DNA from: Sphaerotilus uruguayifluvii
Lineage (GTDB): Bacteria; Pseudomonadota; Gammaproteobacteria; Burkholderiales; Burkholderiaceae_C
Length of the DNA: 37,125 bases
NCBI RefSeq assembly: GCF_013294065.1
Contig: NZ_JABSNM010000031.1
Span: forward strand, 1-37,125
Direction: 5' to 3'
This document shows, one piece after another, positions 92-37,125 of this stretch. Within the stretch, counting starts at the first letter, position 1, and every line of letters starts with the position of its first letter. A program made the position numbers and the translations under genes. The notes under the pieces were generated by a model that saw nothing but the letters and a program-made list of their open reading frames with translations, made no database searches and was not told the origin of the DNA.

Positions 92-127
92 TAAGAAAAG
101 CCTCAGCCTTCGGCGGGCGTGGCGCGC

Positions 128-1507: not shown

Positions 1508-1513
1508 GGCGCG

Positions 1514-1519
1514 ATTGTC
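1514..1519 (-). promoter_or_regulatory. Candidate -10 element of radA
   Basis: GACAAT on the minus strand ends six bases before the radA ATG, which would put the transcription start at about the start codon. No convincing -35 hexamer is seen. Confidence 0.4.
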
Positions 1520-1548
1520 GCCGTGCACCATTCCCCGACGGGGCATGC

Positions 1549-1554
1549 TACAAA
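1549..1554 (+). promoter_or_regulatory. Candidate extended -10 element of the LysE-type gene
   Basis: TGC-TACAAA forms an extended -10; six bases separate it from the ATG at 1561, so the transcript may begin at the start codon. Its RNA polymerase footprint would overlap that of the divergent radA promoter. Confidence 0.4.
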
Positions 1555-1560
1555 TCCAGG

Positions 1561-2190: not shown

Positions 2191-2209
2191 GCGGCGCGGG
2201 AGCCGTGTC

Positions 2210-2728: not shown

Positions 2729-2837
2729 GGGTAGGTCGGACCGCGAGGTCCCGGTGGTGGAATGCCTCCCATCTTGCACCAGTCGTGCCGGGTGCCGTCA
2801 GCCCGGCGTCAGCGATGCGGCCGGGCCGCTCCGTCGC

Positions 2838-4492: not shown

Positions 4493-4562
4493 GATCGCCG
4501 GATTGTGCCAGCGAGCCCCCCGCGCCACGAGGGCTTGCCGCCTGGGACCGGCCGGTGCAGCG

Positions 4563-4571
4563 TGCTATAAC
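4563..4571 (+). promoter_or_regulatory. Extended -10 promoter for lplT
   Basis: TGC-TATAAC is a near-consensus extended -10 in the alr/lplT divergent region. It lacks a well-spaced -35, as extended -10 promoters often do. The transcription start would be near 4578, about 50 bases before lplT. Confidence 0.55.
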
Positions 4572-4628
4572 CGCGCCGCACCCGATCCCGTCCCGTCAGA
4601 ACACAGAGAGCAGCGCGTCGACTTCCGG

Positions 4629-5912
4629 ATGAAAAAAGGCTTTCACACCATCATGTCTGCGCAGTTCTTCAGCTCGCTGGCAGACAACGCCCTGTTCGTC
4701 GCCGCGGTCGAACTGCTCCGGACCTCCGGTGCGCCGGAATGGCAGCGTGCCGCGCTGGTGCCGATGTTCGCGCTGTTCTACGTCATCCTGGCGCCCTTCG
4801 TCGGCGCCTTCGCCGACGCGATCCCGAAGGGCAAGGTGATGTTCTTCTCGAACAGCATCAAGATCCTTGGCTGCCTGCTGATGCTGTTCGGCACGCACCC
4901 GCTGGCGGCCTACGCGGTGGTCGGGCTCGGCGCGGCGGCCTACTCGCCGGCCAAGTACGGCATCCTCACCGAGCTGCTGCCGCCGTCCCAGCTGGTCAAG
5001 GCCAATGGCTGGATCGAGGGCCTGACGATCGGCTCGATCATCCTGGGCGTGCTGCTGGGCGGCCAGCTGATCGGGCCGCACATCGCGCCGCACCTGCTGG
5101 CGCTGGACCTGCCCGGCCTGGACACCGGCATCGACACGCCGCCCGAGAGCGCGATCGCCTCGCTGGTGATCCTGTACGTGACCGCGGCGGTCTTCAACCT
5201 CTACATCCCGCGCACCGACGCGCCGCTGCAGCCGCTGCCCGCGCAGCCGATGGCGCTGGTGCGCGACTTCTCCGAGTGCAACACGCGCCTGTGGGCGGAC
5301 AAGCTCGGCCAGATCTCGCTGGCGACGACGACGCTGTTCTGGGGCGTGTCGGGCAACCTGCGCTACATCGTGCTGGCCTGGGCCGCGGCGGCGCTGGGCT
5401 ACGGCACCACGCAGGCCTCCTCGCTGGTCGGGGTCGTGGCGATCGGCACCGCGGTCGGCGCGGTGGTGGCCTCCGGCATGATGCGCCTCGAGCACGCGAC
5501 CCGGGTGATCCCGCTGGGCGTGGCGATGGGCCTGCTGGTGGTGCTGATGAACGTGATCGACAACGTCTGGCTCGCCGCGCCCTTCCTGATCGTGCTGGGC
5601 GGCCTGGGCGGCTTCCTGGTCGTGCCGATGAACGCGCTGCTGCAGCACCGCGGCCACAACCTGATGGGCGCCGGCCGCTCGATCGCGGTGCAGAACTTCA
5701 ACGAGCAGGCCTGCATCCTGGCGCTGGGCGCCTTCTACACCGGCATGACGCGCGGCGGCCTGTCGGCCTTCGGCGCGATCACGATCTTCGGCCTGCTGGT
5801 GGCCGGCACGATGGGACTGATCGGGCGCTGGCACCAGCGCAACACCGTCACGCACCGCGCCGAGGTCGAGCGCCTGCTCGACATCGCGCGCAGCGACGCC
5901 GGGCACCACTGA
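4629..5912 (+). CDS. lplT: Lysophospholipid transporter LplT (MFS)
   Basis: This 427-residue, 12-helix major facilitator protein matches LplT, which flips lysophospholipids across the inner membrane for re-acylation. The N-terminus M-K-K-G-F-H-T-I-M-S-A-Q-F-F-S-S-L-A-D-N is highly typical, as is the A-D-A-I-P-K-G-K-V-M loop between helices 2 and 3 and Y-S-P-A-K-Y-G-I-L-T in helix 4. Upstream in-frame sequence is open but lacks family features, so ATG 4629 was chosen. In Enterobacteria lplT is joined to the acyltransferase gene aas; here it stands alone, so re-acylation must be encoded elsewhere. Confidence 0.95.
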   Translation: MKKGFHTIMSAQFFSSLADNALFVAAVELLRTSGAPEWQRAALVPMFALFYVILAPFVGAFADAIPKGKVMFFSNSIKILGCLLMLFGTHPLAAYAVVGLGAAAYSPAKYGILTELLPPSQLVKANGWIEGLTIGSIILGVLLGGQLIGPHIAPHLLALDLPGLDTGIDTPPESAIASLVILYVTAAVFNLYIPRTDAPLQPLPAQPMALVRDFSECNTRLWADKLGQISLATTTLFWGVSGNLRYIVLAWAAAALGYGTTQASSLVGVVAIGTAVGAVVASGMMRLEHATRVIPLGVAMGLLVVLMNVIDNVWLAAPFLIVLGGLGGFLVVPMNALLQHRGHNLMGAGRSIAVQNFNEQACILALGAFYTGMTRGGLSAFGAITIFGLLVAGTMGLIGRWHQRNTVTHRAEVERLLDIARSDAGHH

Positions 5913-5932
5913 GCGCCGCGGCCCGAGGAGAC

Positions 5933-6832
5933 TCAGGCGCGCAGCTCGAGCGGCGTCATCAGCGCCGTCGGCTGGAACACGCGCTCGAAGGTGCGGTCGT
6001 GCCGCGCCAGCAGGTGCAGCAGCTCCTGCTCGTCGAGCGGTGTGGTCAGGAAGGCGTCGCAGCCGGCGAAGGTCGCGCGGATGCGCTCGATCGCCGAGCC
6101 GCGCGGCGCCAGCGCCACCACCACCGGCATGCTGCCGCCGCCCGGCACCGCCTGGCGCTTGATGCGCCGGCCGAGCTGGAAGCCGGCCGGTCCGCCCTGG
6201 CCGACGCCGAGAAAGACGAAGCCGTAGCCGGCCAGCGCGGTCATGCGTTCGGCCTCGCCGGCGCTGCGGCTCAGGTGGACCCGGTAGCCCAGCGGCATCA
6301 GCGTGTCGCGCAGCAGCCGGCATTCGGCCGGGCTGGCGCTGACGACCAGGATGCGCTCGAGCCGCAGGTCGCCCTCGGCCAGCACGGTGTTGCTGAAGCC
6401 GGAGCTGGCATGGAAGTCGTGCACCTCGCGGTCGGCCAGCGCGGCCTGGCGCTGATGGCCGGGCGAGGGCGGCAGGCGCAGCAGCGCGCCGGGGCGCTGC
6501 TGGCGTGCCTGGCGGCGGGCCACCAGCTCGTCGAGCGCACGGCGCAGCGCCAGCGCGTCGATCGGCCGCGGCAGCCGCGCGGCGCAGCGCGGCGTGTCCT
6601 CGCCGGCCGTGACCGGGGAGCCGACGAGCAGCGTGTCCTCGAGCCGGTCGAGCCGGCGCACCTGGCGCAGCGTGTCGGCGCGCTCGCCGTCGGCGATGAT
6701 CCAGTCGCAGTCGGGCAGGTCGTCGACGATCTCGAAGCCGGGGCGCCCCGCGTCGAGCCGGAAGAAGCTCTCCAGCGTGCGGCGCTCGAACGCGCTGAGG
6801 CCGATCAGGGCAAGGCGCTGCGGAACGGACAT
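5933..6832 (-). CDS. Protein with two degenerate receiver-like domains
   Basis: The 299-residue product looks like two tandem CheY-like (REC) domains. The first covers about residues 1-110 (D-W-I-I-A-D on the putative beta-3 strand, then R-P-I-D-A-L-A-L before the last helix). The second covers about 165-290 (R-I-L-V-V-S at the start, F-V-F-L-G-V-G where the phospho-accepting Asp should be, T-T-P-L-D-E where Lys-Pro should be). In the second domain the acidic pair, the Asp and the Lys are all absent, so it cannot be a normal phosphorelay receiver. There is no DNA-binding or enzymatic domain. ATG 6832 has AAGGAG nine bases upstream. Its role is unknown; a signalling scaffold is one guess. Confidence 0.75.
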   Translation of the reverse strand: MSVPQRLALIGLSAFERRTLESFFRLDAGRPGFEIVDDLPDCDWIIADGERADTLRQVRRLDRLEDTLLVGSPVTAGEDTPRCAARLPRPIDALALRRALDELVARRQARQQRPGALLRLPPSPGHQRQAALADREVHDFHASSGFSNTVLAEGDLRLERILVVSASPAECRLLRDTLMPLGYRVHLSRSAGEAERMTALAGYGFVFLGVGQGGPAGFQLGRRIKRQAVPGGGSMPVVVALAPRGSAIERIRATFAGCDAFLTTPLDEQELLHLLARHDRTFERVFQPTALMTPLELRA

Positions 6833-6867
6833 CACTGGTACTCCTTGGATCACTTCGTAACAGTCCG

Positions 6868-6896
6868 ATTCTTCGAAGCGGCTTGCTCAGCGTCAA
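6868..6896 (-). promoter_or_regulatory. Sigma-70-type promoter for the receiver-like gene
   Basis: On the minus strand TTGACG (6896-6891) and AAGAAT (6873-6868) are separated by 17 bases. The predicted start near 6862 leaves a leader of about 30 bases with a good AAGGAG site. Confidence 0.55.
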
Positions 6897-7045
6897 GGTG
6901 ATGCACCCCCCTCAATACGGCGTGGTACCCATGGGGAGTGCGCCAGATTGCACGATCGGTCGCCGATGTGCGGGGCCTGCCGGACGCGGCCGATAATCTC
7001 GCACCTCCTTTTCCTCGCATTTCTCCCCCGGCAGGAGCCTCATCC

Positions 7046-8242
7046 ATGTTCGAACACGTCGACGCCTACGCGGGCGATCCGATCCTCACGCTCAACGAGA
7101 ACTTCCAGAAGGACCCGCGCCCGGGCCGCATCAACCTGTCGATCGGCATCTACTTCGACGACGCCGGCCGGCTGCCGGTGATGCAGGCGGTGCGCGAGGC
7201 CGAGAGCTCGCTGCTGCAGTCCATCGGTCCGCGCAGCTACCTGCCGATGACCGGCCTGACCGAGTACCGCACCCAGATCCAGCACCTGCTCTTCGGCGCC
7301 GACCACGAGGTGGTGACGAGCGGCCGCGCGGTGACGATCCAGTCGCTGGGCGGCTCGGGCGCGCTGAAGGTCGGCGCGGACTTCCTGCGCAAGTACTTCC
7401 CGGCCTCGCAGGTCTGGATCAGCGACCCGACCTGGGACAACCACCGCGCGATCTTCGAGGGCGCGGGCTTCCCGGTGAACACCTACCCGTACTACGACGC
7501 GACCACCGGCGGCCTGCGCTTCGACGCGATGCTGGAGGCCATCCGCGCGCTGCCCTCGCGCTCGGTGGTGCTGCTGCACGCCTGCTGCCACAACCCGACC
7601 GGCGTCGACCTGAGCGCGGCGCAGTGGGCCGAGCTGATCCCGGTGATGGTCGAGCGCGGCCTGATCCCCTTCGTCGACATCGCCTACCAGGGCTTCGGCG
7701 ACGGCGTGCGCGAGGATGCCTTCGCGCTGCGCATGCTGGCCGACGCGGGCCTGGCCTTCTTCGTCGCCAACAGCTTCTCGAAGAGCTTCTCGCTCTACGG
7801 CGAGCGCGTCGGCGGCCTGAGCGTGGTCTGCCCGACCGTGGCCGAGGCCGCGCTGGTGACCGGCCAGCTGCAGGTGGCGGTGCGCAAGAACTACTCCAGC
7901 CCGCCCACGCACGGCGCGCGCATCGTCGCGCGGGTGCTGGCCGAGCCGGCGCTCCACGCCGCCTGGGTCGCCGAGCTCGACGCGATGCGCGAGCGCATCC
8001 GCCAGATGCGCCAGCGCCTGCACGACGTGCTGGCCGCGCGCGTGCCCGGCCGCGACTTCAGCTATTTCCTGACCCAGCGCGGCATGTTCAGCTACACCGG
8101 CCTGAGCGCCGAGCAGGTCGACGTGCTGCGCGAGCAGCACGGCGTCTATCTGGTGCGCTCGGGCCGGATGTGCGTGGCGGGCCTGAACTCGGGCAACGTC
8201 GAGCCGACCGCCGAGGCGATCGCCGCGGTGCTGGGCGGCTGA
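7046..8242 (+). CDS. Aromatic/aspartate aminotransferase (TyrB/AspC type)
   Basis: The 398-residue product is a fold-type I, PLP-dependent transaminase that exchanges amino groups between 2-oxoglutarate and aromatic amino acids or aspartate. It opens with [14 protein letters not shown] and has [11 protein letters not shown] (PLP-binding Asn-Pro-Thr-Gly) and the lysine motif [15 protein letters not shown]. Length equals that of E. coli TyrB. ATG 7046 follows GCAGGAGCC. A GATAAT at 6992-6997 may be its -10. It could supply the last step of Phe/Tyr synthesis. Whether it prefers aromatic substrates or aspartate cannot be told from sequence. Confidence 0.93.
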
Positions 8243-8252
8243 GGGCCGCCCC

Positions 8253-10352
8253 TCAGGCGGGCCTGACCGGCTCGAGCATGCGCCGCTCGAACTGGTCGGC
8301 CGGCAGCGCCGGGCTGCACAGGTGGCCCTGGTACTCGTCGCAGTCCTGCGCGCGCAGCCAGTCGAGCTGCGCCTCGGTCTCGACGCCCTCGGCCACCGTC
8401 TCGATGCCCAGCATCCGGCACATCGTGATCACCAGCCGCGCCAGCGGGCTGACGCCATGCTCGCCGGCGATGAACGAGCGGTCGATCTTCAGCGTGCTGA
8501 TCGGGCAGCGCTGCAGGTAGGCGAGGTTGGAGTAGCCGGTGCCGAAGTCGTCGATCGCCAGCCGGAAGCCCATCAGCGCGAGCTTCTGGATCGCCTGCGC
8601 GGTCGACTCGTCCTGGCCGAGCATGACCGACTCGGTGATCTCGAGCTCGAGCTGCTGCGGGTCGCAGCCGGTGTCGCGCACGATGCGCTCGATGGTGTCG
8701 AGCAGCGCCGGATCGCCGAACTGGCGCGGCGACAGGTTCACCGAGATGCGCAGCCGGTGCCCCTGCGACTGCCACAGCACCTGCTGGCGCGCCGCCTGCT
8801 CGAGCACCATCGCGCCGATCGCGCGGATCAGCCCGGTGTCCTCGCTCAGGCCGATGAACACGTCCGGCGGCACCAGGCCGCGGCGCGGATGGCGCCAGCG
8901 CACCAGCGCCTCGGCGCCGAGCAGCCGGCCGCTGCCGACGTGCAGCCGCGGCTGGTAGAAGACCTCGAACTGGTGGCGCTCGACCGCGATGCGCAGGTCC
9001 TGCTCGAGCTGCACCCGGTCGCGCGCGATGCGCACCAGCTCCGGGGTGAACCAGCCCACGCCGTTGCGTCCGCCCTGCTTGGCGCGGTAGAGCGCGAGAT
9101 CGGCGTTGCGCAGCAGCGCCTCGATGTCGTGGCCGTCGCGCGGGAAGCGGCAGATGCCCATCGACGGCGTGACCTGCATCTGCAGCCGCCCGATCATCAC
9201 GGTGCGGCCCAGCTCGGCCTGCAGCCGGCGCACCAGCTGGCGGGTGCGGCGCTCGATGTCGCCGTCGCGGTTGGCCACCAGCACCAGGAACTCGTCGCCG
9301 CCGAGCCGCGCGACCAGGTCGTCGGTCTCCAGCGTCGCGTACAGGCGCTGCGCGATCTCCACCAGCAGCCGGTCGCCGATGTCGTGGCCGAGCGAGTCGT
9401 TGACCGCCTTGAAGCGGTCGAGGTCGATGAAGATCAGCGCGGCCTCGCCGCCGCTGGCGTGCAGGCCGTCGAGGCGCTGCTGGAAGTCGCGCGAGACGAA
9501 GCTGCGGTTGGGCAGGCCGGTGAGGGTGTCGCGCATCGCCAGCCAGTGCGCGCGCGCCTCGGCCTGCTTGAGCTCGGTGATGTCGATCTCGCTGACCAGG
9601 AAGACCTGGCGGCCCTCGACCGGATCGCGGCACAGCCGCACCGAGATGTCGTGCCAGCGCGGCCCCAGGCTGGTGTTGACCTGCGCGGTGGCGCGTGCCT
9701 GGCCCGAGCGGTGCAGCCGCTCGACCAGCTGGCGCAGCTCGCGGCGGTCGATCATCCGGCTGCGTGCGCCCGCGTCCGGATGATCGACCGTCGCGCGGGC
9801 GGCCGGGTTGCGGTAGAGCGCGCGGCCGCGCACGCTGTAGAGCGTGACCATGACGGGCGTGTGCACCATCGCCTCGGCGCTGCGCAGCGTGACCGCGTCG
9901 GTCATCGTCTCGCCGACGGCCTCGCACAGCATGCCCATGCGGCCGTCCTCGAGCGGCCAGCCGCTGCAGACGATGTCGACGGTGCGCGGCATGCCGCGCG
10001 GGTAGAGCGTCCACAGCTCGGTGCAGCTGCGGTCGTGCAGGTGGAAGTCGTGCTGGAGCTGGAGCAGGCGCTGCGCGATCGCCGGCGACATCTCGCGCGC
10101 CATGTCGCGCCGTCGCAGCTCCTCGAGATCGTCGCTGCACCACAGGCCGAGCGCGGCCGGGTTGGCCCAGACGATGCGGCCGTGGTCGATGTCGTAGATC
10201 CACACGGGCGTGCGCAGCCGCTGCAGCGGCGACAGACCGGTGTCGGCGCAGAGGCCGTCCTCCGTGTCACTCGCGGCATTCGCCGATTGACGGATCGGGT
10301 CGATGACCGCCATGCCGAAGCCGTGGCGGAGGGAAAGGGATGCCGATTCCAT
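8253..10352 (-). CDS. Diguanylate cyclase/phosphodiesterase with PAS-like sensors
   Basis: This 699-residue cytoplasmic protein makes and/or degrades cyclic di-GMP. Order: PAS-like domain (about 45-135), second PAS (about 155-265), GGDEF domain (about 268-430) with intact GGDEF at 351-355, and EAL domain (about 440-690) with E-A-L at 481-483, S-V-N-L-S, E-I-T-E-S and D-D-F-G-T-G-Y-S-N-L. Both catalytic sites look intact, so it may be bifunctional. The inhibitory RxxD site five residues before GGDEF reads E-T-D-D, so the arginine is missing and product inhibition is unlikely. No membrane segment is seen. ATG 10352 is preceded by CAGGGGGT. It converges with the aminotransferase gene. Confidence 0.95.
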   Translation of the reverse strand: MESASLSLRHGFGMAVIDPIRQSANAASDTEDGLCADTGLSPLQRLRTPVWIYDIDHGRIVWANPAALGLWCSDDLEELRRRDMAREMSPAIAQRLLQLQHDFHLHDRSCTELWTLYPRGMPRTVDIVCSGWPLEDGRMGMLCEAVGETMTDAVTLRSAEAMVHTPVMVTLYSVRGRALYRNPAARATVDHPDAGARSRMIDRRELRQLVERLHRSGQARATAQVNTSLGPRWHDISVRLCRDPVEGRQVFLVSEIDITELKQAEARAHWLAMRDTLTGLPNRSFVSRDFQQRLDGLHASGGEAALIFIDLDRFKAVNDSLGHDIGDRLLVEIAQRLYATLETDDLVARLGGDEFLVLVANRDGDIERRTRQLVRRLQAELGRTVMIGRLQMQVTPSMGICRFPRDGHDIEALLRNADLALYRAKQGGRNGVGWFTPELVRIARDRVQLEQDLRIAVERHQFEVFYQPRLHVGSGRLLGAEALVRWRHPRRGLVPPDVFIGLSEDTGLIRAIGAMVLEQAARQQVLWQSQGHRLRISVNLSPRQFGDPALLDTIERIVRDTGCDPQQLELEITESVMLGQDESTAQAIQKLALMGFRLAIDDFGTGYSNLAYLQRCPISTLKIDRSFIAGEHGVSPLARLVITMCRMLGIETVAEGVETEAQLDWLRAQDCDEYQGHLCSPALPADQFERRMLEPVRPA

Positions 10353-18954: not shown

Positions 18955-18983
18955 TTGACGCGGCCGCGCGGCCTCTCTACATT
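18955..18983 (+). promoter_or_regulatory. Sigma-70 promoter of the aroG leader
   Basis: TTGACG (18955-18960) and TACATT (18978-18983) are separated by exactly 17 bases. The predicted start at 18990-18991 is one or two bases before the leader-peptide ATG at 18992. Confidence 0.7.
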
Positions 18984-18991
18984 CGACCCCC

Positions 18992-19066
18992 ATGAAGCGT
19001 TTCGCCTTCTTTTTTGGCTACTTTTGGTTCTCGCACCGCACCGGCGGAGGAGAGGCCCACGCGTAG
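18992..19066 (+). CDS. Leader peptide of the DAHP synthase attenuator
   Basis: This 24-codon reading frame encodes MKRFAFFFGYFWFSHR followed by TGGGEAHA. Eight of the ten residues at positions 4-13 are aromatic (six Phe, one Tyr, one Trp). Such a run is the signature of attenuator leader peptides, as in E. coli PheL and PheM. It sits between a promoter and an intrinsic terminator, upstream of the gene for the first enzyme of aromatic amino-acid synthesis. The expected role is to sense charged tRNA-Phe (and perhaps Tyr and Trp): ribosome stalling would favour an antiterminator. No Shine-Dalgarno sequence is present and the promoter would place transcription start at the ATG, so it may be leaderless. 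Confidence 0.85.
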   Translation: MKRFAFFFGYFWFSHRTGGGEAHA

Positions 19067-19102
19067 CTGAAAAGCCCGCAAGCGCTCCAAGGAAACCGCC
19101 GG
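19041..19102 (+). promoter_or_regulatory. Antiterminator pairing of the aroG attenuator
   Basis: CCGGCGG at 19041-19047, inside the leader-peptide frame, is perfectly complementary to CCGCCGG at 19096-19102, the 5' arm of the terminator. It is identical to the core of the terminator's own 3' arm, so the two pairings are mutually exclusive. The arm begins 11 bases after the last aromatic codon, so a ribosome stalled on the early Phe codons would leave it free. A separate pause hairpin was not identified. Confidence 0.65.
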
Positions 19103-19123
19103 ATCCCCCGGCGGTTTTTTTTT
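19093..19123 (+). terminator. Attenuator terminator before aroG
   Basis: AAACCGCCGG (19093-19102) pairs perfectly with CCGGCGGTTT (19108-19117) around ATCCC, with nine T residues at 19115-19123. It lies between the promoter and the aroG ATG and 26 bases after the leader-peptide stop, so it must regulate aroG rather than end tldD alone. Confidence 0.9.
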
Positions 19124-19205
19124 GGCCGCCGTCCGGAGCCCCCGGTCTTCCGCATCCCGAATCGGCATCCGACACCCGACACACGACTCTCCCAGGAACA
19201 CGAAG

Positions 19206-20324
<1,119 letters not shown>

Positions 20325-20725: not shown

Positions 20726-21304
20726 TCAGTCGGCCGCGCGCGCGAGTCGCTCGCTGCGCCAGTAGACGTCGTCGCCGCCCAGCCCGTCGAGGTTGGCGCG
20801 GTTGAGCACCCGCGCCAGCACGAACAGCAGGTCCGACAGCCGGTTCAGGTACTGGCGCGGCGCCTGGTTGACCGCCTCGCCGGAGCGCTGCAGCGTCACC
20901 ACCGCGCGCTCGGCGCGCCGGGCGATGGTGCGTGCCACATGGGCGAGCGCGGCGCTGCGCGTGCCGGCCGGCAGGATGAACTCCTGCAGCCGCGGCAGCT
21001 GCTCGTTGTGATGCGCCAGCGCCTCGTCCAGGCGCAGCACCGCCTCGTCCTTCAGCAGCGCGTGGCCCGGAATGCACAGCTCGCCGCCGAGATTGAAGAG
21101 CTCGTGCTGGATGACGACCAGCAGCTCGCGCACCTCGGCGGGCAGCGGCTCGGCCAGCAGCACGCCGATCTGCGAGTTGAGTTCGTCCACGTCGCCCATC
21201 GCGGCGATGCGCAGGTGGTCCTTCGGCACGCGCGTGCCGTCGCCCAGTCCGGTGGTTCCGTCGTCCCCGGTGCGGGTGCTGATTTGTGTGAGTCGGTGTC
21301 CCAT
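20726..21304 (-). CDS. Cob(I)yrinic acid a,c-diamide / cob(I)alamin adenosyltransferase, PduO type
   Basis: This enzyme transfers the adenosyl group of ATP to cob(I)alamin to make coenzyme B12. The 192-residue product shows the PduO-family N-terminus I-S-T-R-T-G-D-D-G-T-T-G-L-G-D-G (ATP-binding), then G-D-V-D-E-L-N-S-Q-I-G, and the C-terminal pair R-x-x-E-R-A-V-V near 128 and L-N-R-L-S-D-L-L-F-V-L-A-R near 157. ATG 21304 gives MGHRLTQIST; TACGAT sits six bases upstream and no Shine-Dalgarno sequence is seen. No cobalamin riboswitch fits in the 88 bases separating it from the divergent gene. Confidence 0.94.
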   Translation of the reverse strand: MGHRLTQISTRTGDDGTTGLGDGTRVPKDHLRIAAMGDVDELNSQIGVLLAEPLPAEVRELLVVIQHELFNLGGELCIPGHALLKDEAVLRLDEALAHHNEQLPRLQEFILPAGTRSAALAHVARTIARRAERAVVTLQRSGEAVNQAPRQYLNRLSDLLFVLARVLNRANLDGLGGDDVYWRSERLARAAD

Positions 21305-21310
21305 GCCGGC

Positions 21311-21316
21311 ATCGTA
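21311..21316 (-). promoter_or_regulatory. Candidate -10 element of the adenosyltransferase gene
   Basis: TACGAT on the minus strand ends six bases before the ATG at 21304, which again predicts a leaderless transcript. No -35 hexamer is evident. Confidence 0.35.
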
Positions 21317-21392
21317 GCGGCTTGATCCGCACCCCTGTGCCGACGGGCACAATACGCATCCGCAACGAATCCGAAGTCCGAAGGCAGTCCCC

Positions 21393-22154
21393 ATGTCCTC
21401 CCCGTCCCAGAACGACCTCACCGATGACGAGATCGGCGAACTCGACGACCTGCTGGCCCAGATCCCGGCGCCGCTCGAGGCGCTCGATGTCGTCATGCTC
21501 GACGGCTACCTCTGCGGCGTGCTCGCGCAGCCGGTGGCGCTCGAGATCGCCGAGTGGCTGCCGCCGGCCTGCGACTGGAACCTCGGCGACGAGGAGCATG
21601 GCGGCGGCGCGGTGCTGACGCCCGACACGAAGGGCTGGCATGCCGCGCGCCACGAGCGCCTGACCGCGCTGGTGCAGCGCCGCTTCGATGCGCTGAACCG
21701 CCAGCTGGTCGAGGACGGCTGGTTCGATCCGGTGGTGATGCAGCCGCTCGACGACGACGGCAATCCGCTGCGCGGCCGCGCCGAGATCGAGGGCGCGCTG
21801 GCGCCGTGGGTCATCGGCTTCGAGCATGCGCTGAACCACTTCCCCGGCCTCGAGGACCTGCCGAACCCGGACATTCCGGACCTGCTGGCCTGCCTGCGCC
21901 GCCATCTGCCCGACCAGGGCGAGGACGAGCAGGCCTACACCAAGGCGCTCGACCAGGAGCATCCGCTGAAGTCGCTCGACGCGGCGATCGAGGATCTGGT
22001 CGGCAACGTGGTCGAGCTGGCCGACATCGGTCGCACCGAGCGGCTGAAGGTCACCCAGGTGCGCCGCAGCGCGCCCAAGGTCGGCCGCAACGACCCCTGC
22101 CCGTGCGGCAGCGGCCGCAAGTACAAGCAGTGCCACGGCCGCGATCAAAGTTGA
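21393..22154 (+). CDS. YecA/UPF0149-family protein with C-terminal SEC-C motif
   Basis: The 253-residue product joins an N-terminal UPF0149/YecA domain (about 10-190; [13 protein letters not shown] near 35 and W-V-I-G-F-E-H-A near 139 are typical) to a C-terminal SEC-C zinc-binding motif, [19 protein letters not shown] (about 231-249). The SEC-C motif is shared with SecA. E. coli YecA has been reported to bind ribosomes and SecA; that is family knowledge. The gene is divergent from the cobalamin adenosyltransferase. A CACAAT at 21349 might be part of its promoter. Confidence 0.9.
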
Positions 22155-30789: not shown

Positions 30790-32517
30790 TCACGCGCCCG
30801 GCATCTCCATGCCGCGGAACACCGCGCAGCGCTCGAAGACGGCGGCGTCGGCCGTCTGGCCGCGGTGGCGGCACCAGGTCGCCACCAGCCGCGCCAGGCC
30901 CTTGATGTCGCGGCCGCTGGCCTGGGCGAAGCGGTCGGTCAGGTGCGCGACCAGCGCGTCGTCGAGCGCCAGGCCGAACTGCTCGCCCATGACCCGCCAG
31001 ATGCGCGCGCGCGCCAGCACGTCGGGCGGGTGGTAGCGGATCAGCGCGATGCAGCGGCTGACGATGGCCTCGTCGATGTCGTCGATGCGGTTGGTCGTCA
31101 GGAAGAGCAGGCCGTTGAAGTACTCCAGCACCCGCAGGAAGACGCCGACGACCGCGTTGGTGGTCAGGTCGTCGGCGCGGCGGCGGATGTAGACGTCGGC
31201 CTCGTCGATCAGCATCACCGCGCCCCAGCGCTGCGCGCGCGTCAGCGCCTCCTTCAGTGCCAGCTCCATCGCCGCGACGTTCAGGCCGAGCTGGCCGGAA
31301 TGCACCCGGTACAGCGGCCGGCCGATGATCTCGGCATAGACCTCGGCGGTCAGCGTCTTGCCCACGCCGGGCGGGCCGGCGCACAGCACCGTCGTGCCGC
31401 CCGACTTGCCCGCGACGATGTCGTCCATCAGCACGTCCATCTCGGCCGTCAGCAGGTCGATCAGGTCGGTCTGCTCGCGGGGCAGCACCAGCCGCTCCTT
31501 CAGCCCGGGATCGTAGGCGTAGGGCTCGAGATCGTCCGCATGCACCCAGACATGGCGGTGCAGCTCCAGGTGGAACAGGAAGACGAAGCCGTGCACCGGC
31601 AGCCGGGTGAAGAGCTCGGGCGGCATCGACGCGCGCAGCGCCGCCAGCTCGTCCTCGCCGCCGTAGAGGTTGCTGCGCGCGGCGCGGCGCAGGTAGGCGC
31701 CGAGGATGTCGCCGGCGGCGTCGAGCACCGCGGTGCGCGGCGGCAGCACGCTCTCGTCGTTGACCAGCCGCGCCGGCGTGCCGGAGGACGACAGCACGAC
31801 GCGGTCCTTGCGCGACCAGTCGGTGTCGCGGTGGGTCGCGGTCGGGTCCTCGGCGAGGTAGCCGGTGCCGCGGCCGAGGAACTGCGCGCCGTGGCGCAGC
31901 CGCCATTCGGCATGGCGCGCCGCGCTGGCGTCGTGCGCCTCGAGCAGCGCGTCGGTCTCCTTCAGCAGCCCGCGCGAGGCCAGCAGCGCGGCGATGCCGC
32001 CGCGGCCCGCAGCCGCACGCAGGTCGCCTTCGGTGAGCCGCAGCGTCTGCGTGACCAGGCCGGTGCGCACCAGCGCCTTCATCTCGACCAGCACCCGACC
32101 GGCCTCGTCGCCGCTGGCGGCGACATGGTCGACGCGGGTGACCAGCCAGGGCGCGAGCCGGCCGTCGGCCTGCGCGGCGAACAGCCAGCCGCGGCGCGCG
32201 TCGACCACCAGATGGCGCACCAGCGCCAGCAGCAGCTCCTCCAGGCCCGAGCGCTCGCCCAGCGGCGCGCCGTCGGCCTCGAGCGCGGCGATCAGGCCCA
32301 GCAGCAGCCGGTGGCGCGCGGCCCAGGCCGGACCGGCATCGGCGTAGATCTGGCCGAGCACCTGCAGCTCGTCGCGGCCGAGGTGGTGCCAGGGCAGCTC
32401 GACGCGCGCGCCCTGGCGCAGCGGCTCGTCCAGGTGGGCCAGCCGCGGCACGCGCGCGATCAGCGCCTGCGCCTGCGGCCGCTCGAGCAGCAGGTGGATG
32501 CCGGCGGCGGCGTTCAT
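30790..32517 (-). CDS. AAA+ ATPase with a long unrecognised N-terminal region
   Basis: The 575-residue product has one AAA+ module in its C-terminal half: Walker A G-P-P-G-V-G-K-T (381-388), Walker B V-M-L-I-D-E-A-D (434-441), sensor-1 T-T-N (474-476) and arginine-finger region A-I-V-S-R-C (484-489), with a lid domain to about 555. This is closest to the classical clade of FtsH/CDC48/BCS1-like remodelling ATPases. Residues 1-350 are not recognised, although E-P-Y-A-Y-D-P-G-L-K just before the ATPase looks like a conserved linker. ATG 32517 overlaps the stop of the flavoprotein gene (ATGA). It is the last gene of the operon; the client is unknown, and a partner flavoprotein or ferredoxin is a reasonable guess. 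Confidence 0.88.
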   Translation of the reverse strand: MNAAAGIHLLLERPQAQALIARVPRLAHLDEPLRQGARVELPWHHLGRDELQVLGQIYADAGPAWAARHRLLLGLIAALEADGAPLGERSGLEELLLALVRHLVVDARRGWLFAAQADGRLAPWLVTRVDHVAASGDEAGRVLVEMKALVRTGLVTQTLRLTEGDLRAAAGRGGIAALLASRGLLKETDALLEAHDASAARHAEWRLRHGAQFLGRGTGYLAEDPTATHRDTDWSRKDRVVLSSSGTPARLVNDESVLPPRTAVLDAAGDILGAYLRRAARSNLYGGEDELAALRASMPPELFTRLPVHGFVFLFHLELHRHVWVHADDLEPYAYDPGLKERLVLPREQTDLIDLLTAEMDVLMDDIVAGKSGGTTVLCAGPPGVGKTLTAEVYAEIIGRPLYRVHSGQLGLNVAAMELALKEALTRAQRWGAVMLIDEADVYIRRRADDLTTNAVVGVFLRVLEYFNGLLFLTTNRIDDIDEAIVSRCIALIRYHPPDVLARARIWRVMGEQFGLALDDALVAHLTDRFAQASGRDIKGLARLVATWCRHRGQTADAAVFERCAVFRGMEMPGA

Positions 32518-34238
32518 GCCGGCACCGGTCCGCCGGCGCGCGCGATCAGCCGCGCGTCGACCTCGAGCGCGAAGGCCTGCCAGGCGGCGGCCAGATCGCG
32601 CCGGATCGTGCCGAGGTAGTCGCGCGGCGGCTGGTGCTCCTGCGGGAAGTTCGAAAGGGCGCACGAGCCGCGGTTGAATCGCACCGCCTCGCCCAGCAGC
32701 TCGTCGGCCAGGCCGCCGAAGGGCGCCAGCACCCGCGGCGTCAGCGCGGCGCGCCCGCCCGGCAGCGGAGCCTGCGGCGGCGTGATCACCAGCGGCAGGC
32801 CGTCGAGCCGCGCCAGCGCCTCGGCGTAGATCGACTCGAGTGCGGACAGCACCGCGCGCTGGGTGAGCTGGTCGCGCTGCTGCGCCGCCAGCGCATGGTG
32901 GACCCGCTGGCGGTAGCGCTGCAGCGCGCCGGCGCGCGTCTCGGCGACCCAGCGGGCGAAGTCCTGCAGCGCGCGGTCGTTGTGGCCGTCGTTGGCCGCC
33001 TCGCGCGCGGCCTGCGGCAGCGGGGCCGGCGGCGCGACGAAGCCGCGGCCGTCGCGTGCCGGCGCGGGGCCGGCGGCCACCGGTGCCAGCCGCGCCTGCA
33101 GCTCGCGGCGCAGCCGCGCGGCCGAGGACAGCGCCCCCTCGAGGTAGCCGGTGCCGTGCTGCGCGGTCTCGGCGCCGCCCAGCCACAGCCGCCCGTTCCA
33201 GGCCGGCTGCAGCAGGCGCGCGTCCGCCGCCGGATGGGCCGGCGCGCCGGCGCGGCCGTCCTCGGCCAGGTCGCGCTGCGAACAGGTGCGCGGCTCCTCG
33301 GCCCAGTCCTGCTGCAGCAGCAGGCCGTCCTCGGCCTCGGGGCCGAAGAGCTGCACGAACTGGCTGCGCAGCAGCAGCGGCATCGCCCGCGCGAAGGGGC
33401 GGCGCTGCTCGGCCGCCAGCGCCTGGAAGCCGGCCAGCGCGGCGCCGGTGGCGGTGCCGGCGTCGAAGACCTCGGCCAGCACCGCCTGCGCATGCGTGAC
33501 CCAGGCGTTGCCGCTCAGGCCGCGGTCCTGCCAGAACGGGCGGGCGGCGACCAGCGCGGCCTTGGCGGCGGTGGCCATCCAGGTCGGCGTGGCCTGCATC
33601 GCCTCGACGGTGGCAGTCTCGAGCGCCGGCTCGAAGCGCAGCTGCTCGAGCGCCAGCCGCGGCGGCAGCGCCAGCACCACATGGCGGGCGCGCAGCGCGT
33701 GGCGGATCGCGCCGTGGGCGAACTGCAGCTCGACGCCGCTGCCGTCGTCGAGCCGCACCAGCGCCTCCAGCGCCTGGCCGGTGCGCAGCCGCGCGGCGCC
33801 GCCGGCGGCCTCGATGCGCGCCACCAGCGCGTCGACCAGCGCGGCCATGCCGCCGTCGAGCCGGCGTGCGCCGCCATGCAGCCGGCCGGGCTGGGCCGCC
33901 TCGGCCGCGGCCTCGCTCGTCTCCCAGTCCGGGGTCACCGTCAGCACCCGCGCGGGCTGCTGCGGATCGTCGAGCAGCAGCACGCGGCCGTCGTCGGCCT
34001 GCGCGCGGCTCGGCAGACCGAGGTCCTCGATCAGCCGGGTGATCGAGGGCTGGGTGTCGGGCCAGAACCAGGTGGGACCGAGGTCGATGCGCCCGCCGCG
34101 GCCGTCGGGCTGCGACAGGATGCGCCCGCCCAGGCGGTCGCGCGCCTCGAACAGGCGCCAGTCGGCCCCGCGGGCCTGCAGGCTGTGGGCCAGCGCCAGG
34201 CCGCACAGGCCACCACCGATGATCGCGACGTCGAGCAT
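32514..34238 (-). CDS. FAD-dependent amine-oxidase-like protein with C-terminal extension
   Basis: The 574-residue product starts with a Rossmann fold, V-A-I-I-G-G-G-L-C-G-L-A (4-15), and E-A-R-D-R-L-G-G-R-I (31-40), the amine-oxidase FAD motif. The usual end of such proteins, R-L-W-L-G-G-A-E-T-A-Q-H-G-T-G-Y-L-E-G-A, appears at 350-369. A further stretch of about 190 residues (385-574) follows that I do not recognise; it begins with a Pro/Ala linker and then has helical segments, with F-P-Q-E-H-Q-P-P-R-D-Y near 531. Substrate is unknown. It is coupled to the ATPase gene and lies 58 bases after the ferredoxin gene. Confidence 0.88.
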   Translation of the reverse strand: MLDVAIIGGGLCGLALAHSLQARGADWRLFEARDRLGGRILSQPDGRGGRIDLGPTWFWPDTQPSITRLIEDLGLPSRAQADDGRVLLLDDPQQPARVLTVTPDWETSEAAAEAAQPGRLHGGARRLDGGMAALVDALVARIEAAGGAARLRTGQALEALVRLDDGSGVELQFAHGAIRHALRARHVVLALPPRLALEQLRFEPALETATVEAMQATPTWMATAAKAALVAARPFWQDRGLSGNAWVTHAQAVLAEVFDAGTATGAALAGFQALAAEQRRPFARAMPLLLRSQFVQLFGPEAEDGLLLQQDWAEEPRTCSQRDLAEDGRAGAPAHPAADARLLQPAWNGRLWLGGAETAQHGTGYLEGALSSAARLRRELQARLAPVAAGPAPARDGRGFVAPPAPLPQAAREAANDGHNDRALQDFARWVAETRAGALQRYRQRVHHALAAQQRDQLTQRAVLSALESIYAEALARLDGLPLVITPPQAPLPGGRAALTPRVLAPFGGLADELLGEAVRFNRGSCALSNFPQEHQPPRDYLGTIRRDLAAAWQAFALEVDARLIARAGGPVPA

Positions 34239-34296
34239 GTCAGGCTCCCGGCAGGCAGGAAGGACGAGAACGCGGGCGGCGGGCGGAGCGTCCGGC

Positions 34297-34602
34297 TCAG
34301 CCCGACAGCGCGCCCAGCAGCTCGACGGTCACCGGCTCGGTGCCGAGGATCGTCGCCTGGCAGGCCAGGCGCGACTTGCTGCCGATGCCCACCAGCGTGT
34401 CGAGCTTGGCGTTCTCGGCCGGGGTCAGCTTCGAGACGCCCTTGCGGCCGCCGGTGACGAAGACGTGGCAGGCGCCGCAGCTGGCCTTGCCGCCGCACTT
34501 GCTGGCGATCTGGCCGCCGAGCGCGAGAATGGCCTGCAGCAGGTTGGTGCCGTCGGCGACTTCGCCGGACAGGCCGGAGGGCTGGAGGGTGAGCGTGGTC
34601 AT
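34297..34602 (-). CDS. [2Fe-2S] ferredoxin, plant/adrenodoxin-like
   Basis: This 101-residue protein is a small electron carrier. C36, C42, C45 and C81 are spaced C-x5-C-x2-C-x35-C (K-C-G-G-K-A-S-C-G-A-C-H, then L-A-C-Q), as in single-cluster [2Fe-2S] ferredoxins. It begins M-T-T-L-T-L-Q-P-S-G and has a G-T-N-L-L-Q-A-I-L motif before the cluster. ATG 34602 is preceded by AGGAGAACTCCG. As a neighbour of the flavoprotein it is the obvious electron partner. A nitrogen-fixation-type ferredoxin is possible but unproven. Confidence 0.93.
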   Translation of the reverse strand: MTTLTLQPSGLSGEVADGTNLLQAILALGGQIASKCGGKASCGACHVFVTGGRKGVSKLTPAENAKLDTLVGIGSKSRLACQATILGTEPVTVELLGALSG

Positions 34603-34649
34603 CGGAGTTCTCCTGGAGGGATGCACAGGGCGGGGAAGGGATCAGGCGA

Positions 34650-35498
34650 TCAGGCGGCCAGCGGCTGCGTGGCGACGAGCCGCGCGGCGACCTCGGCCAG
34701 CGGCAGCGCGATGCGGGTGATGCCCAGCTCGTCGAGGAAGCGCGCCTCCATGCGCGTGGGCTCGTCGGCCATCACCGCGTAGTGCGGGCCGCCGCTGCGC
34801 TTGAGGATCTGGCGCGCGAAGGCGCGCGGCAGCTGGTCGTTGAAGCGGCAGCCGAGGAAGACGAAGCCCAGCGTGGCGCGGCGCTGCTGCACCTGCGCCG
34901 GGATCGGCGTCTGGATGTCGATCTCGGTCAGCACCTCGACGAAGTCGGAGTCCGAGACCAGGTAGTTGCTCGCCGGCGCGCGGCCGCCCCAGGGCTTGTA
35001 GTACAGCAGCGGCGCCTCGACCGGGTCGGGGCTGGGCGCGCCGCTGGCGTCGTAGCCGCCGGTCCAGGTGCCGAAGTGCTCGCTCTGGCTCAGGCCCTGC
35101 ACCTCGGTCCAGGCGGTGCGGCCGACCTGCGCCAGCGCCAGGCGCAGCGTGTCGTCGTACCAGCAGTCGACCACCAGCGGGCTGGGCAGCGTCGCCAGCC
35201 AGCGGTGCAGCGGCGAGGGCTCGGCCGACAGCGCGAAGGCCTCGTCCATCGCCTTGACCAGGCTCTTGCGATGCTTGAAGTTCTCGATGAACTGCGCCGC
35301 CGCGGTCAGGCGGTTGCGGATCTTGCCCGGCACCGAGACCTTGGTGGTCAGCACGCCGGCCAGCGCCAGCGCGTCGGCCGGCGGCACGACGCCCTCGCAC
35401 AGCGAGAGCAGGCCCGGGCCGAGGTAGGGCGCCAGCGTGCCGGCGGTCAGGCCAGCGACGACGGCGTCGGGCAGTTCGGTGACGGTGGAGTGGCTCAT
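34650..35498 (-). CDS. SIR2-like protein with altered catalytic motifs
   Basis: The 282-residue product resembles the SIR2_2-like family: an NAD-binding opening L-A-P-Y-L-G-P-G-L-L (22-31), a second motif V-V-D-C-W-Y-D-D (109-116) where the family has T-T-N-Y-D, Y-Y-K-P-W-G-G (166-172) where K-L-H-G carries the catalytic His, N-Y-L-V-S-D-S-D-F (178-186), and F-V-F-L-G-C-R-F-N-D (212-221). Asn and His of the active site are thus both Trp. An NAD-consuming activity is doubtful; it may bind NAD or another nucleotide. The recognition rests on the order of these motifs. It precedes the ferredoxin gene by 47 bases. Confidence 0.72.
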   Translation of the reverse strand: MSHSTVTELPDAVVAGLTAGTLAPYLGPGLLSLCEGVVPPADALALAGVLTTKVSVPGKIRNRLTAAAQFIENFKHRKSLVKAMDEAFALSAEPSPLHRWLATLPSPLVVDCWYDDTLRLALAQVGRTAWTEVQGLSQSEHFGTWTGGYDASGAPSPDPVEAPLLYYKPWGGRAPASNYLVSDSDFVEVLTEIDIQTPIPAQVQQRRATLGFVFLGCRFNDQLPRAFARQILKRSGGPHYAVMADEPTRMEARFLDELGITRIALPLAEVAARLVATQPLAA

Positions 35499-35534
35499 GT
35501 CCGGTCCTTCGGGTCTTTCCGATCTCTTCGGTCT

Positions 35535-36728
35535 TCAGTAGATGGCCGCGCCGGCGCCGACGTTGACGGTCGAGTCCTTCATCGTCTTGACGATGAAGCG
35601 GACGTGGTCGGAGGTCAGGTGCGCGTGGAAGGGCAGGGCGATCGCGCGGTCGGCGATGCGCTCGACCAGCGGCAGCTGGCCGCGGCGCCAGCCCTGCTGC
35701 TGGTAGTGGAACTGCTGGTGCAGCGGCTGGCAGTACAGCGCCGCCTCGATCATTTCCTCGGCCAGGTCCTCGACGATCTGGTCGCAGGCGCTGGCGGTGA
35801 AGCGCTTGCCCAGGTGCACGACGTAGAGCATCCAGTGCACCTCGTCGACGCCGGGGCGGATGTAGGGCGGCTTGATGCCCTCGAAGGTCTGCACCTGCTC
35901 CAGGTACAGCGCCTCGACCGTCTTGCGCTTCTCGAGCAGCTGCGGCAGGCGCGCGAGCTGCGCCAGCCCGAGCGAGGCGGTCAGCTCGCTCACGCCGCAC
36001 TGCAGCGGCACCCGCGAGCCCACCGACACCGAGCGCCGGTCGGCCAGCGCCCGCGCGCGCAGGTAGCGCAGCTCGGCGGCGAGCGCGTCGTCGTCGGTGA
36101 CGACCATGCCGCCCTCGCCGCAGCACAGCGCCGAGGGCTGCGAGAAGTCGAACACCGACAGGTCGCCGAAGCTGCCGACCGGGCGGCCCAGGTAGCGCGA
36201 GCCGATCGCCTCGGTCGAGTCCTCGATCAGCTTCAGGCCGTGGCCGTCGGCCACCGCGCGCAGCGCGTCCCAGGCGGCGGGGTGGCCGTTGACGTTGCCG
36301 GCCAGGATCGCCCGGGTCTGCGGCGTGACCTGCGCGGCGGCGCGGGTGGCGTCCAGGCAGCCGGTCCAGTAGTCGATGTCGGCGAAGACCAGCCGCGCGC
36401 CGGCCAGCGTGACCGCGTGCATCACCTGGTGCCAGCCGTAGGGCGAGGCGACGACCTCGTCGCCGGGTCCGATGCCCAGCGCGCGCAGCGCCAGCCAGGT
36501 GCCGACGGTGCCGCTGGCCATCGCGACCGCGTGCCGGCGCCCGAGCAGCGCGGCGAAGCGCTGCTCGAAGGCCTCGACCAGCGGGCCACCCGACAGCCGC
36601 GCGCCGTGCAGCGCGCGGGTGACGAGCTCGACCTCGACCTCGGTGACGTCGGGGTCGCTGAGCTGCAGCCAGCCCTCGGGCAGCTCGAAGTCCTCGGCGG
36701 CGTCGGACAGTTCGGCGGGCGCGTTCAT
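35535..36728 (-). CDS. DegT/DnrJ/EryC1/StrS aminotransferase homologue lacking the PLP lysine
   Basis: The 397-residue product has the family fold: A-M-A-S-G-T-V-G-T-W-L-A (69-80), G-D-E-V-V-A-S-P-Y-G-W-H (89-100), V-F-A-D-I-D (114-119), L-I-E-D-S-T-E-A-I-G (167-176), then F-D-F-S-Q-P-S-A-L-C-C-G-E-G-G (193-207). In active members the last motif has Lys, which forms the PLP aldimine, at the position of S199. D170, which contacts the PLP ring nitrogen, is kept. It is therefore unlikely to be a transaminase; it may use PLP in another way or serve as a binding protein. ATG 36728 overlaps the stop of the gene before it (ATGA). Confidence 0.85.
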   Translation of the reverse strand: MNAPAELSDAAEDFELPEGWLQLSDPDVTEVEVELVTRALHGARLSGGPLVEAFEQRFAALLGRRHAVAMASGTVGTWLALRALGIGPGDEVVASPYGWHQVMHAVTLAGARLVFADIDYWTGCLDATRAAAQVTPQTRAILAGNVNGHPAAWDALRAVADGHGLKLIEDSTEAIGSRYLGRPVGSFGDLSVFDFSQPSALCCGEGGMVVTDDDALAAELRYLRARALADRRSVSVGSRVPLQCGVSELTASLGLAQLARLPQLLEKRKTVEALYLEQVQTFEGIKPPYIRPGVDEVHWMLYVVHLGKRFTASACDQIVEDLAEEMIEAALYCQPLHQQFHYQQQGWRRGQLPLVERIADRAIALPFHAHLTSDHVRFIVKTMKDSTVNVGAGAAIY

Positions 36729-37006
36729 GCGGCGGCTCCGGGCCTGTCGGCGAGGAAGAGGCCCGCGGCCTGCGCCGCGTCCTGCGTGACCTGCCAGCAG
36801 TGGCCGTCGCTGGCACCGAACCACAGCAGCCGGCGGCTGCCGCGCGCGGCCGGCGTCTCGGCGCGCATGTCGAAGGCGTCGACGACGACCACGCGCAGCG
36901 GCGCCAGGCGCTGGCGCAGCAGCGCGGCGGCCTCGCGCACCGTGCCGGCCGTGTCGGCCAGCGCGGCGATCTCGCTCAAGGGGGGCAGGGACAGGGGCTG
37001 GCTCAT
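36725..37006 (-). CDS. Small protein of unknown function, 93 residues
   Basis: This is the first gene of the operon within the window. The protein has predicted N-terminal helices (A-A-L-A-D-T-A-G-T-V-R-E-A-A-A-L-L-R-Q-R), a V-V-V-V-D-A-F-D-M-R strand, and R-R-L-L-W-F-G-A-S-D-G-H-C-W-Q-V near residue 65. The last part vaguely recalls the DUF6129 proteins found in nitrogen-fixation clusters, but the likeness is weak. The upstream sequence has no clear ribosome-binding site beyond CCGGAGCC. The 119 bases beyond it hold a dyad and no evident gene. Confidence 0.6.
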   Translation of the reverse strand: MSQPLSLPPLSEIAALADTAGTVREAAALLRQRLAPLRVVVVDAFDMRAETPAARGSRRLLWFGASDGHCWQVTQDAAQAAGLFLADRPGAAA

Positions 37007-37043
37007 GGCGGGCTCCGGGCGAGGGGGATTCGGGCTTGTATGT

Positions 37044-37074
37044 TTCAGACCAGACCAGCGCGGTAGAGTCTGAA
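37044..37074. promoter_or_regulatory. Inverted repeat upstream of the six-gene operon
   Basis: TTCAGAC (37044-37050) and GTCTGAA (37068-37074) are perfect 7-bp arms 17 bases apart, located 38-68 bases before the first ATG of the operon. They could be an operator. No sigma-54 site or NifA-type TGT-N10-ACA element was found between 37007 and 37125. Confidence 0.35.
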
Positions 37075-37125
37075 CGCCGTTGAGGCGGCCAGACCGGACC
37101 GTGCAGCCTGGTGGCGGCTTGGGCC

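Follow-up and report, generated by a model that had tools for sequence, protein, structure and literature searches.

The window analysed here is the whole 37,125-nucleotide stretch NZ_JABSNM010000031.1 of Sphaerotilus uruguayifluvii (assembly GCF_013294065.1), which is an entire contig (C31) of a 4.9-Mb genome. Close to its right end lie six tightly packed genes on the minus strand, which the original prediction had read as a six-gene operon whose combination of genes was not known from a characterised pathway and which are considered here in the light of nitrogen fixation (nif) genes. From the contig end inward, the features are as follows (protein lengths in amino acids, aa).

37035-37125, no strand: repeat at the contig end, with exact copies at three further contig ends of this genome; probably where a repeated or mobile element ends
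36725-37006, minus strand: small protein gene, 93 aa, the first gene of the packed set
35535-36728, minus strand: DegT/ArnB-fold protein gene, 397 aa, PF01041
34650-35498, minus strand: SIR2-like protein gene of a nif-linked family, 282 aa, PF13289 (SIR2_2)
34297-34602, minus strand: [2Fe-2S] ferredoxin gene, ISC-like, 101 aa, PF00111 (Fer2)
32514-34238, minus strand: amine-oxidase-fold flavoprotein gene, 574 aa, PF01593, with a C-terminal helical domain at about 409-567
30790-32517, minus strand: AAA+ ATPase gene, 575 aa, PF00004

The packing of the six genes was reproduced in full, with 4-base overlaps at the small/DegT and flavoprotein/AAA+ junctions and gaps of 36, 47 and 58 bases elsewhere. 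The protein classes that had been proposed agree with Pfam, which places five of the six products (AAA, Amino_oxidase, Fer2, SIR2_2 and DegT_DnrJ_EryC1), and the flavoprotein does have an extra domain, C-terminal and helical. The small protein has no match in Pfam or NCBIfam.

Conservation of the set was examined in a scan with the DegT-like protein, which gave 127 relatives; the best 80 loci were kept, and the per-gene counts take in only those loci whose DNA stretch gave room. At least one of nifT, nifB and nifH is found in all 80 loci, with nifT upstream in 77 of 77 and nifB upstream in 55 of 57. The SIR2 gene is present downstream in every one of 75 loci, the small gene accompanies the set in 71 of 77 and the ferredoxin gene in 64 of 71. 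Where both are present, the SIR2 gene precedes that of the ferredoxin in 69 of 71 loci and follows it in two (L059 and L070). The 80 loci are partly non-independent, as 29 pairs of DegT-like proteins are more than 97% identical. Nevertheless, a linkage that recurs in 80 loci, some of them near-identical, is not a chance arrangement. The conserved core consists of the small protein, the DegT-like protein, the SIR2-like protein and the ferredoxin after nifT, and the flavoprotein and AAA+ genes form a variable appendix to it. The six-gene operon of the original prediction therefore stands for this genome, whereas in relatives it gives way to a four-gene core with a variable flavoprotein/AAA+ part. 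The conserved co-occurrence that had been suggested as a check is found for the core: nearly all of the 80 loci, every one of which has nif genes, keep it behind nifT.

The same block lies beside nif genes on annotated plasmids of Paraburkholderia aromaticivorans, P. sprentiae, Methylococcus sp. EFPC2 and Bradyrhizobium sp. BWA-3-5. The order on the Methylococcus plasmid is DegT-ferredoxin-hypothetical-SIR2, and in Bradyrhizobium sp. BWA-3-5 the SIR2 gene follows nifT and the DegT frame is interrupted. In Rhizobium etli CFN 42 and Rhizobium sp. ACO-34A, the SIR2 gene alone of the set follows nifT. The SIR2-like family extends to symbiosis plasmids: matches to it occur in 75 of 72,556 plasmid records, and the hosts of these plasmids belong only to Rhizobium, Mesorhizobium, Sinorhizobium, Bradyrhizobium, Microvirga, Paraburkholderia and Methylococcus. 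Some details of individual loci may be recorded here. The nif plasmid of Paraburkholderia sprentiae WSM5005 (L105) has a cysteine desulfurase gene and a SIR2-ferredoxin region that both appear to be in pieces (18973-19392 and 21160-22038). On the 89.6-kb Methylococcus sp. EFPC2 plasmid (L107; NZ_CP070492.1, 25000-74000), the module is accompanied by nifA, nifB, nifL, nifT, nifV, nifW, isc genes, clpX and lon; the 69 features covered there do not include nifHDK. In an otherwise nif-bearing genome, a DegT-like gene (G122:C522:4846-6009) contains one internal TAG.

In the window's own genome, both nifH and nifB are on another contig, C29, on which the order nifB-fdxN-hesB-...-nifZ-nifZ-...-cysteine desulfurase-nifT reads toward the contig's first base; nifT is about 94 bases from that base, and the gene run leaves the contig end. 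The closest named relative found is Sphaerotilus natans, whose DegT-like protein is 96% identical to that of the window. The reverse complement of C29 positions 1-6000 maps to 3760-9693 of the S. natans locus L017, and the window operon starts mapping at position 9692, directly after the C29 match. In S. natans, nifT is directly followed by the small, DegT, SIR2 and ferredoxin genes; the match stops at 12424, just past the ferredoxin, and neither a flavoprotein nor an AAA+ gene follows in this locus. Because the nifB-to-nifT run of C29 continues straight into the operon in S. natans, the six genes are predicted to close a nifB operon at its 3' end, under a putative NifA/sigma-54-type promoter. 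The upstream part of this operon is cut off because the window is a whole contig that ends in the repeat at 37035-37125. On the S. natans map, nif genes do lie just beyond the right edge, where a search for them had been advised. About 86 bases at the C29 end beyond nifT (L119) have no match on S. natans L017. In this strain the small gene seems to be parted from nifT by a repeated element, perhaps an insertion sequence, which would split the nifB operon here but not in S. natans L017.

The distribution of promoter-like sequences was compared across these loci. A sigma-54-type site had to agree with the consensus at 9 or more of its 11 positions and to lie no more than 400 bases before a gene, and one single-base shuffle per locus served as control. 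Such a site comes before nifB in each of 56 loci (shuffled, 0 of 56) and before nifH in each of 28 (control 2). On C29, it lies at 6247, with a TGT-N10-ACA site near 6352. Within the core, sites are found upstream of the small gene in 6 of 71 loci (control 1), of DegT in 1 of 79 (control 4) and of the ferredoxin gene in 1 of 71 (control 0); the AAA+ gene has one in 1 of 4 (control 0). This pattern fits a single predicted NifA-dependent transcript from nifB. The flavoprotein genes, with a site in 8 of 37 loci (control 1), may have their own promoter in some lineages. A sigma-54-like match was also obtained upstream of SIR2 in 30 of 80 loci (shuffled 1). Since it falls inside the DegT reading frame in the 29 cases that could be placed, it was not counted as a promoter, though it is not disproved.

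A second line of evidence comes from genomes rather than loci. The sample comprised 200 genomes of the window's order, its own included; nifB was checked in six of them, and the Fisher values are quoted for nifH alone and ignore kinship. The "tight" cut-offs for AAA+ (>690 bits) and flavoprotein (>270 bits) were chosen after the gaps in the score lists had been seen; the four AAA+ and six flavoprotein genomes below them have no nifH. NifH is encoded in 28 genomes, the SIR2-like protein in 23, the DegT-like protein in 16, the AAA+ protein in 12 and the flavoprotein in 10. Co-occurrence with nifH is seen in 20 of the 23 SIR2 genomes (p 3e-18), 14 of the 16 DegT genomes (p 4e-12), 11 of the 12 AAA+ genomes (p 6e-10) and 9 of the 10 flavoprotein genomes (p 5e-8). 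The three SIR2 genomes without a nifH match (G030, G135 and G161) carry nifB; two of these are the DegT exceptions, and one is the AAA+ exception. All 16 DegT genomes contain the SIR2 gene. At the level of the phylum, AAA+ orthologues were found in 5 of 398 genomes (E<=1e-150), too few for a test.

Taken from sequence comparison, these genes are near certain to be nif accessory genes. The original prediction had named an accessory role in diazotrophy as one of two inferences, and it is this one that is strongly supported, by the continuity with nifB-nifT in S. natans, the near-confinement to genomes with nifH or nifB, the 80 nif-linked loci and the sigma-54-type site before nifB. The other inference, redox modification of a peptide or protein by the flavoprotein and ferredoxin with help from the ATPase, finds no support: no precursor-peptide or pathway gene was recognised next to the genes in annotated relatives, in which no dedicated search was run.

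Two of the proteins have folds that suggest enzymes. In PLP (pyridoxal phosphate) aminotransferases the catalytic residue is a lysine, and Asn and His are the catalytic residues of SIR2 enzymes. The residue counts that follow take in the window itself and as many as four plasmid loci. Rows below bit thresholds were left out (the SIR2 protein of L105, the flavoproteins of L060, L073 and L095, and the AAA+ matches of L054, L064, L067 and L105). Structure-linked alignments used 44 rows from 77 SIR2 open reading frames (ORFs), 51 from 74 small-protein ORFs and 26 from 34 flavoprotein ORFs, plus the window protein in each case.

The DegT-like protein matches PF01041 at 295 bits (cut-off 19.8) and scores under every NCBIfam equivalog cut-off shown. 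Its residues 20-382 align with an ArnB-type aminotransferase, with Ser199 at the position of the PLP lysine. In the 84 rows that have a residue there, position 199 is Ser in 60, Gly in 12, Leu in 8 and Ala in 4, and Lys in none. Two PLP-pocket residues are kept, Asp170 in 84 of 84 rows and Ser72 in 84 of 85. The SIR2-like protein matches SIR2_2 at 56.6 bits (cut-off 24.5) and has Trp113 at the Asn position of the SIR2 NADases (nicotinamide adenine dinucleotide, NAD, hydrolases), in a register that comes from weak alignments to solved structures (E 0.002). All 84 rows carry Trp there, as do two Rhizobium members that are not among them. The His position, whose register we take from its K-P-x-G context, holds Ile in 40 rows, Trp in 34, Leu in 6, Met in 3 and His in 1. 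Other parts of the protein are strongly conserved, for example D194-I195-Q196. The claim that both enzymes are catalytically altered (S199 and W113) is therefore correct and extends to their relatives. As the PLP lysine and the NADase Asn are replaced family-wide, classical aminotransferase or NADase/deacetylase chemistry is unlikely on sequence grounds. Replacement throughout the families combined with strong conservation at other positions argues for a retained, non-classical role of the two proteins and not for decay.

These residues bear on two alternatives. In the first, the SIR2-like protein would regulate nitrogenase by acting as an NAD-dependent deacetylase or NADase, along the lines of what has been suggested in print for ZMO1821 of Zymomonas mobilis. 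Its SIR2_2 domain is what such an enzyme would have, the His is kept in two of the three alphaproteobacterial members shown, and a deacetylase has been proposed for the nif-island SIR2 protein in the parts of the source available (PMC8600466). However, with Trp at the Asn position in every row and His in a single one, in a register that rests on weak alignments, we consider this very unlikely. The second alternative, that the genes make a small molecule or a modified peptide with the DegT-like protein and the flavoprotein as enzymes, has the enzyme-like folds in its favor and scarcely deserves credence: the DegT lysine is missing in all 84 rows, no pathway partners were recognised in annotated relatives, and the genes are nearly confined to nif genomes. 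A peptide or amino-sugar pathway was rejected for the same lack of recognisable partner genes in annotated relatives. A defence system was rejected because of the scores and the nif linkage, the matches to IetA, TRIP13 and ThsA being weak; for the IetAS anti-phage system, the IetA/IteA equivalog gave 25.5 bits against a cut-off of 510, and PADLOC 32.7 bits.

In the small protein, His69-Cys70 is near-invariant (H69 in 77 and C70 in 78 of 79 rows). Its Bradyrhizobium counterpart is annotated DUF6129, and its AlphaFold2 model, with a predicted local distance difference test (pLDDT) score of 90, found no relative at E<=0.001 in a fold search of the PDB. The cluster cysteines of the ferredoxin are kept (C36, C42 and C45 in 75 of 75 rows, C81 in 74 of 75), and its best NCBIfam model is that of an ISC (iron-sulfur cluster) ferredoxin, with a score below the cut-off. 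The flavoprotein matches PF01593 at 120 bits (cut-off 19.8) and has the GxGxxG motif for flavin adenine dinucleotide (FAD), with G8 and G10 in 36 of 36 rows and G13 in 35. The best PDB folds for its AlphaFold2 model (pLDDT 89) are monoamine and putrescine oxidases. K226, presumably the lysine of monoamine oxidase, is kept in 35 of 36 rows, and position 365, which we take to be the aromatic-cage site, is His in 20 and Tyr in 16; the activity of the protein cannot be read from these residues. The C-terminal helical domain has no Pfam match of note; it is fused in the window (32514-34238) and is a separate ORF in S. hippei (L018, 12471-14155). The AAA+ protein matches PF00004 at 62.5 bits, with motifs unvarying in six aligned rows: segments 381-388 and 434-441, Asn476 and Arg488, which we take to be Walker A, Walker B, sensor and Arg finger, respectively. 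No Pfam family matches its N-terminal stretch of about 370 residues, and its nearest solved sequences are VCP/Cdc48-like.

From the variable placement of the last two genes, it might be supposed that the flavoprotein and the AAA+ protein each travel with nif genes as passengers and have nothing to do functionally with the four-gene core. In Methyloversatilis they precede nifB, on the Methylococcus plasmid they lie at a distance from the core, and in several genomes they are on other contigs. Against this stands their distribution. Among 31 nif-bearing genomes of the order, 11 have both AAA+ and DegT, one has AAA+ only, five have DegT only and 14 have neither (p 6e-4, kinship ignored). In addition, DegT is present in 9 of 10 flavoprotein genomes, and the two genes adjoin in the window and lie close together in L158 and L159. 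We consider it improbable that they are mere passengers.

Genome-wide AAA+ searches yielded 15 AAA+ neighbourhoods, some of them in short stretches. In six of these, nif genes, core genes or an ORF resembling the iron-molybdenum cofactor (FeMo-co) domain were recognised, and in one (L147) the AAA+ gene shares 4 bases with a neighbouring gene whose product has the FeMo-co-binding domain PF02579. As a separate observation, a gene resembling glutathione S-transferase (GST) lies within 7 kb of the AAA+ gene in 11 of the 15 (L147, L149, L150, L152, L153, L155-L159 and L123). A gene with CCG and 4Fe-4S domains is found between the flavoprotein and AAA+ genes in L018 (14159-15700, Pfam-tested), L028 and L033, and such a gene also occurs near AAA+ in L152, and one is present in L107 (24757-26166); none was found in the window or in the first 18 kb of C29.

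The reading we favor, with moderate confidence, is that the genes form the 3'-terminal part of a nifB operon and serve as an accessory module for making or maintaining molybdenum nitrogenase. Of several possible roles, maturation or maintenance of the nitrogenase metal clusters is the likeliest, because the core lies in the NifB operon beside NifZ, NifT, cysteine desulfurase and Fe-S carriers, and because one further lineage couples AAA+ to a FeMo-co-domain gene. The mechanism offered here as a hypothesis, an adaptor plus a remodeller, would have the small His-Cys protein and the DegT-like and SIR2-like proteins serve as a scaffold or ligand-sensing adaptor in the assembly or repair of these clusters. 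To this adaptor, the DegT-like protein would bring a PLP pocket that is kept with its lysine gone, and the SIR2-like protein an NAD-type fold with its Asn gone. The ferredoxin would provide electrons. In the lineages that have them, the AAA+ protein would spend ATP to remodel an assembly intermediate or a damaged component, and the flavoprotein would take on a redox side task.

Several observations weigh against this account. The repeat parts the genes from nifT in this strain, so that co-transcription is not assured. Neither the SIR2-like nor the DegT-like protein is generally essential, since they are missing from 8 and 14 of the 28 nifH genomes, respectively. The flavoprotein gene lies downstream in 27 of 69 loci and the AAA+ gene in 4 of 60; a genome-wide search of S. 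natans, which covered only AAA+ of these two, gave no match at E<=1e-60, 9 of the 15 AAA+ neighbourhoods are without a recognised nif gene, and G082, one of the flavoprotein genomes, lacks both nifH and nifB. The flavoprotein and AAA+ protein may thus act apart from the core.

The main rival is protection from oxygen or redox stress, in which the ferredoxin, the flavoprotein and their partners would use up O2, act as an electron buffer or shield nitrogenase by binding to it in a complex. There is a precedent in the FeSII protein of Azotobacter, which forms a protective complex with nitrogenase. The redox genes within the set, the GST, glutaredoxin and BolA-like genes near the AAA+ and flavoprotein genes in some relatives, and the modelled fold of the flavoprotein, which would be that of O2-using amine oxidases, all point this way. 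Nonetheless, the flavoprotein follows the core in just the minority of loci given above, and the ferredoxin resembles, below cut-off, a protein of ISC type; we regard protection as unlikely. Also unlikely is a dedicated nitrogenase remodelling machine. In it, the DegT-like and SIR2-like pseudoenzymes with the small His-Cys protein would be a client adaptor that recognises nitrogenase or its cofactor carrier when either is in a particular state of ligand binding. The ferredoxin would set the redox state, and AAA+, where present, would open the client so that FeMo-co or the P-cluster could be inserted, repaired or removed.

The set of genes matters for two reasons. To move nitrogen fixation into new hosts, every accessory gene must be known. 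Moreover, the family-wide losses in the active sites contradict the obvious annotations (aminotransferase, deacetylase), and whether these proteins are pseudoenzymes is directly testable.

Parts of this set are already in print, namely nif-linked SIR2 proteins and the nif-region DegT/ferredoxin pair of photosynthetic bradyrhizobia. Rcc03262, a nif-cluster SIR2 protein of Rhodobacter capsulatus, was not found in a nifA1-A2 mutant (PMC6925177). ZMO1821 is up under N2 fixation and is suggested to be a deacetylase (PMC8600466), and is also treated in PMC8594446. PST_1325 of Pseudomonas stutzeri is listed directly before nifH (PMC11332353), and in Rhodovulum a SIR2-like protein comes after nifT (PMC9412634). 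Rcc03262, ZMO1821 and PST_1325 are described singly; likewise located in nif clusters, they are set beside the window protein by description only. The bradyrhizobial genes BRADO5411 (DegT) and BRADO5410 (2Fe-2S ferredoxin) are listed under nitrogen fixation beside NifZ-domain, LRV-FeS4 and SufA-like genes (PMC3899966). According to PMC3899966, several of these neighbours make up an operon that Nod-independent bradyrhizobia share with Azorhizobium caulinodans and that three rhizobia without free-living nitrogen fixation lack. This distribution fits a role in free-living fixation. The pair resembles the DegT and ferredoxin genes of the window by description, and the part of that source available gives it no function and makes no mention of a missing lysine. 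No established role of the set turned up in the open-access literature searched, nor did any account of the flavoprotein or AAA+ gene in a nif setting.

Four of the proteins can be set against better-known systems. The DegT-like protein has the fold and the PLP-pocket Asp and Ser of ArnB/PseC-type sugar aminotransferases (PF01041) and is without their PLP lysine. The SIR2-like family has the SIR2_2 domain of ThsA/KomC-type NADases, with weak profile matches, but its Asn is changed to Trp, and the presumed His position mostly holds other residues. The flavoprotein shares the fold and FAD motif of monoamine and putrescine oxidases and differs from them in its extra C-terminal helical domain and its nif linkage. 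Finally, Rubisco activases and other assembly AAA+ proteins are encoded beside the genes of their client metalloenzyme. The AAA+ gene of the window would, by analogy only, be placed in the same way, and the remodelling machine would be the nitrogenase counterpart of Rubisco activase.

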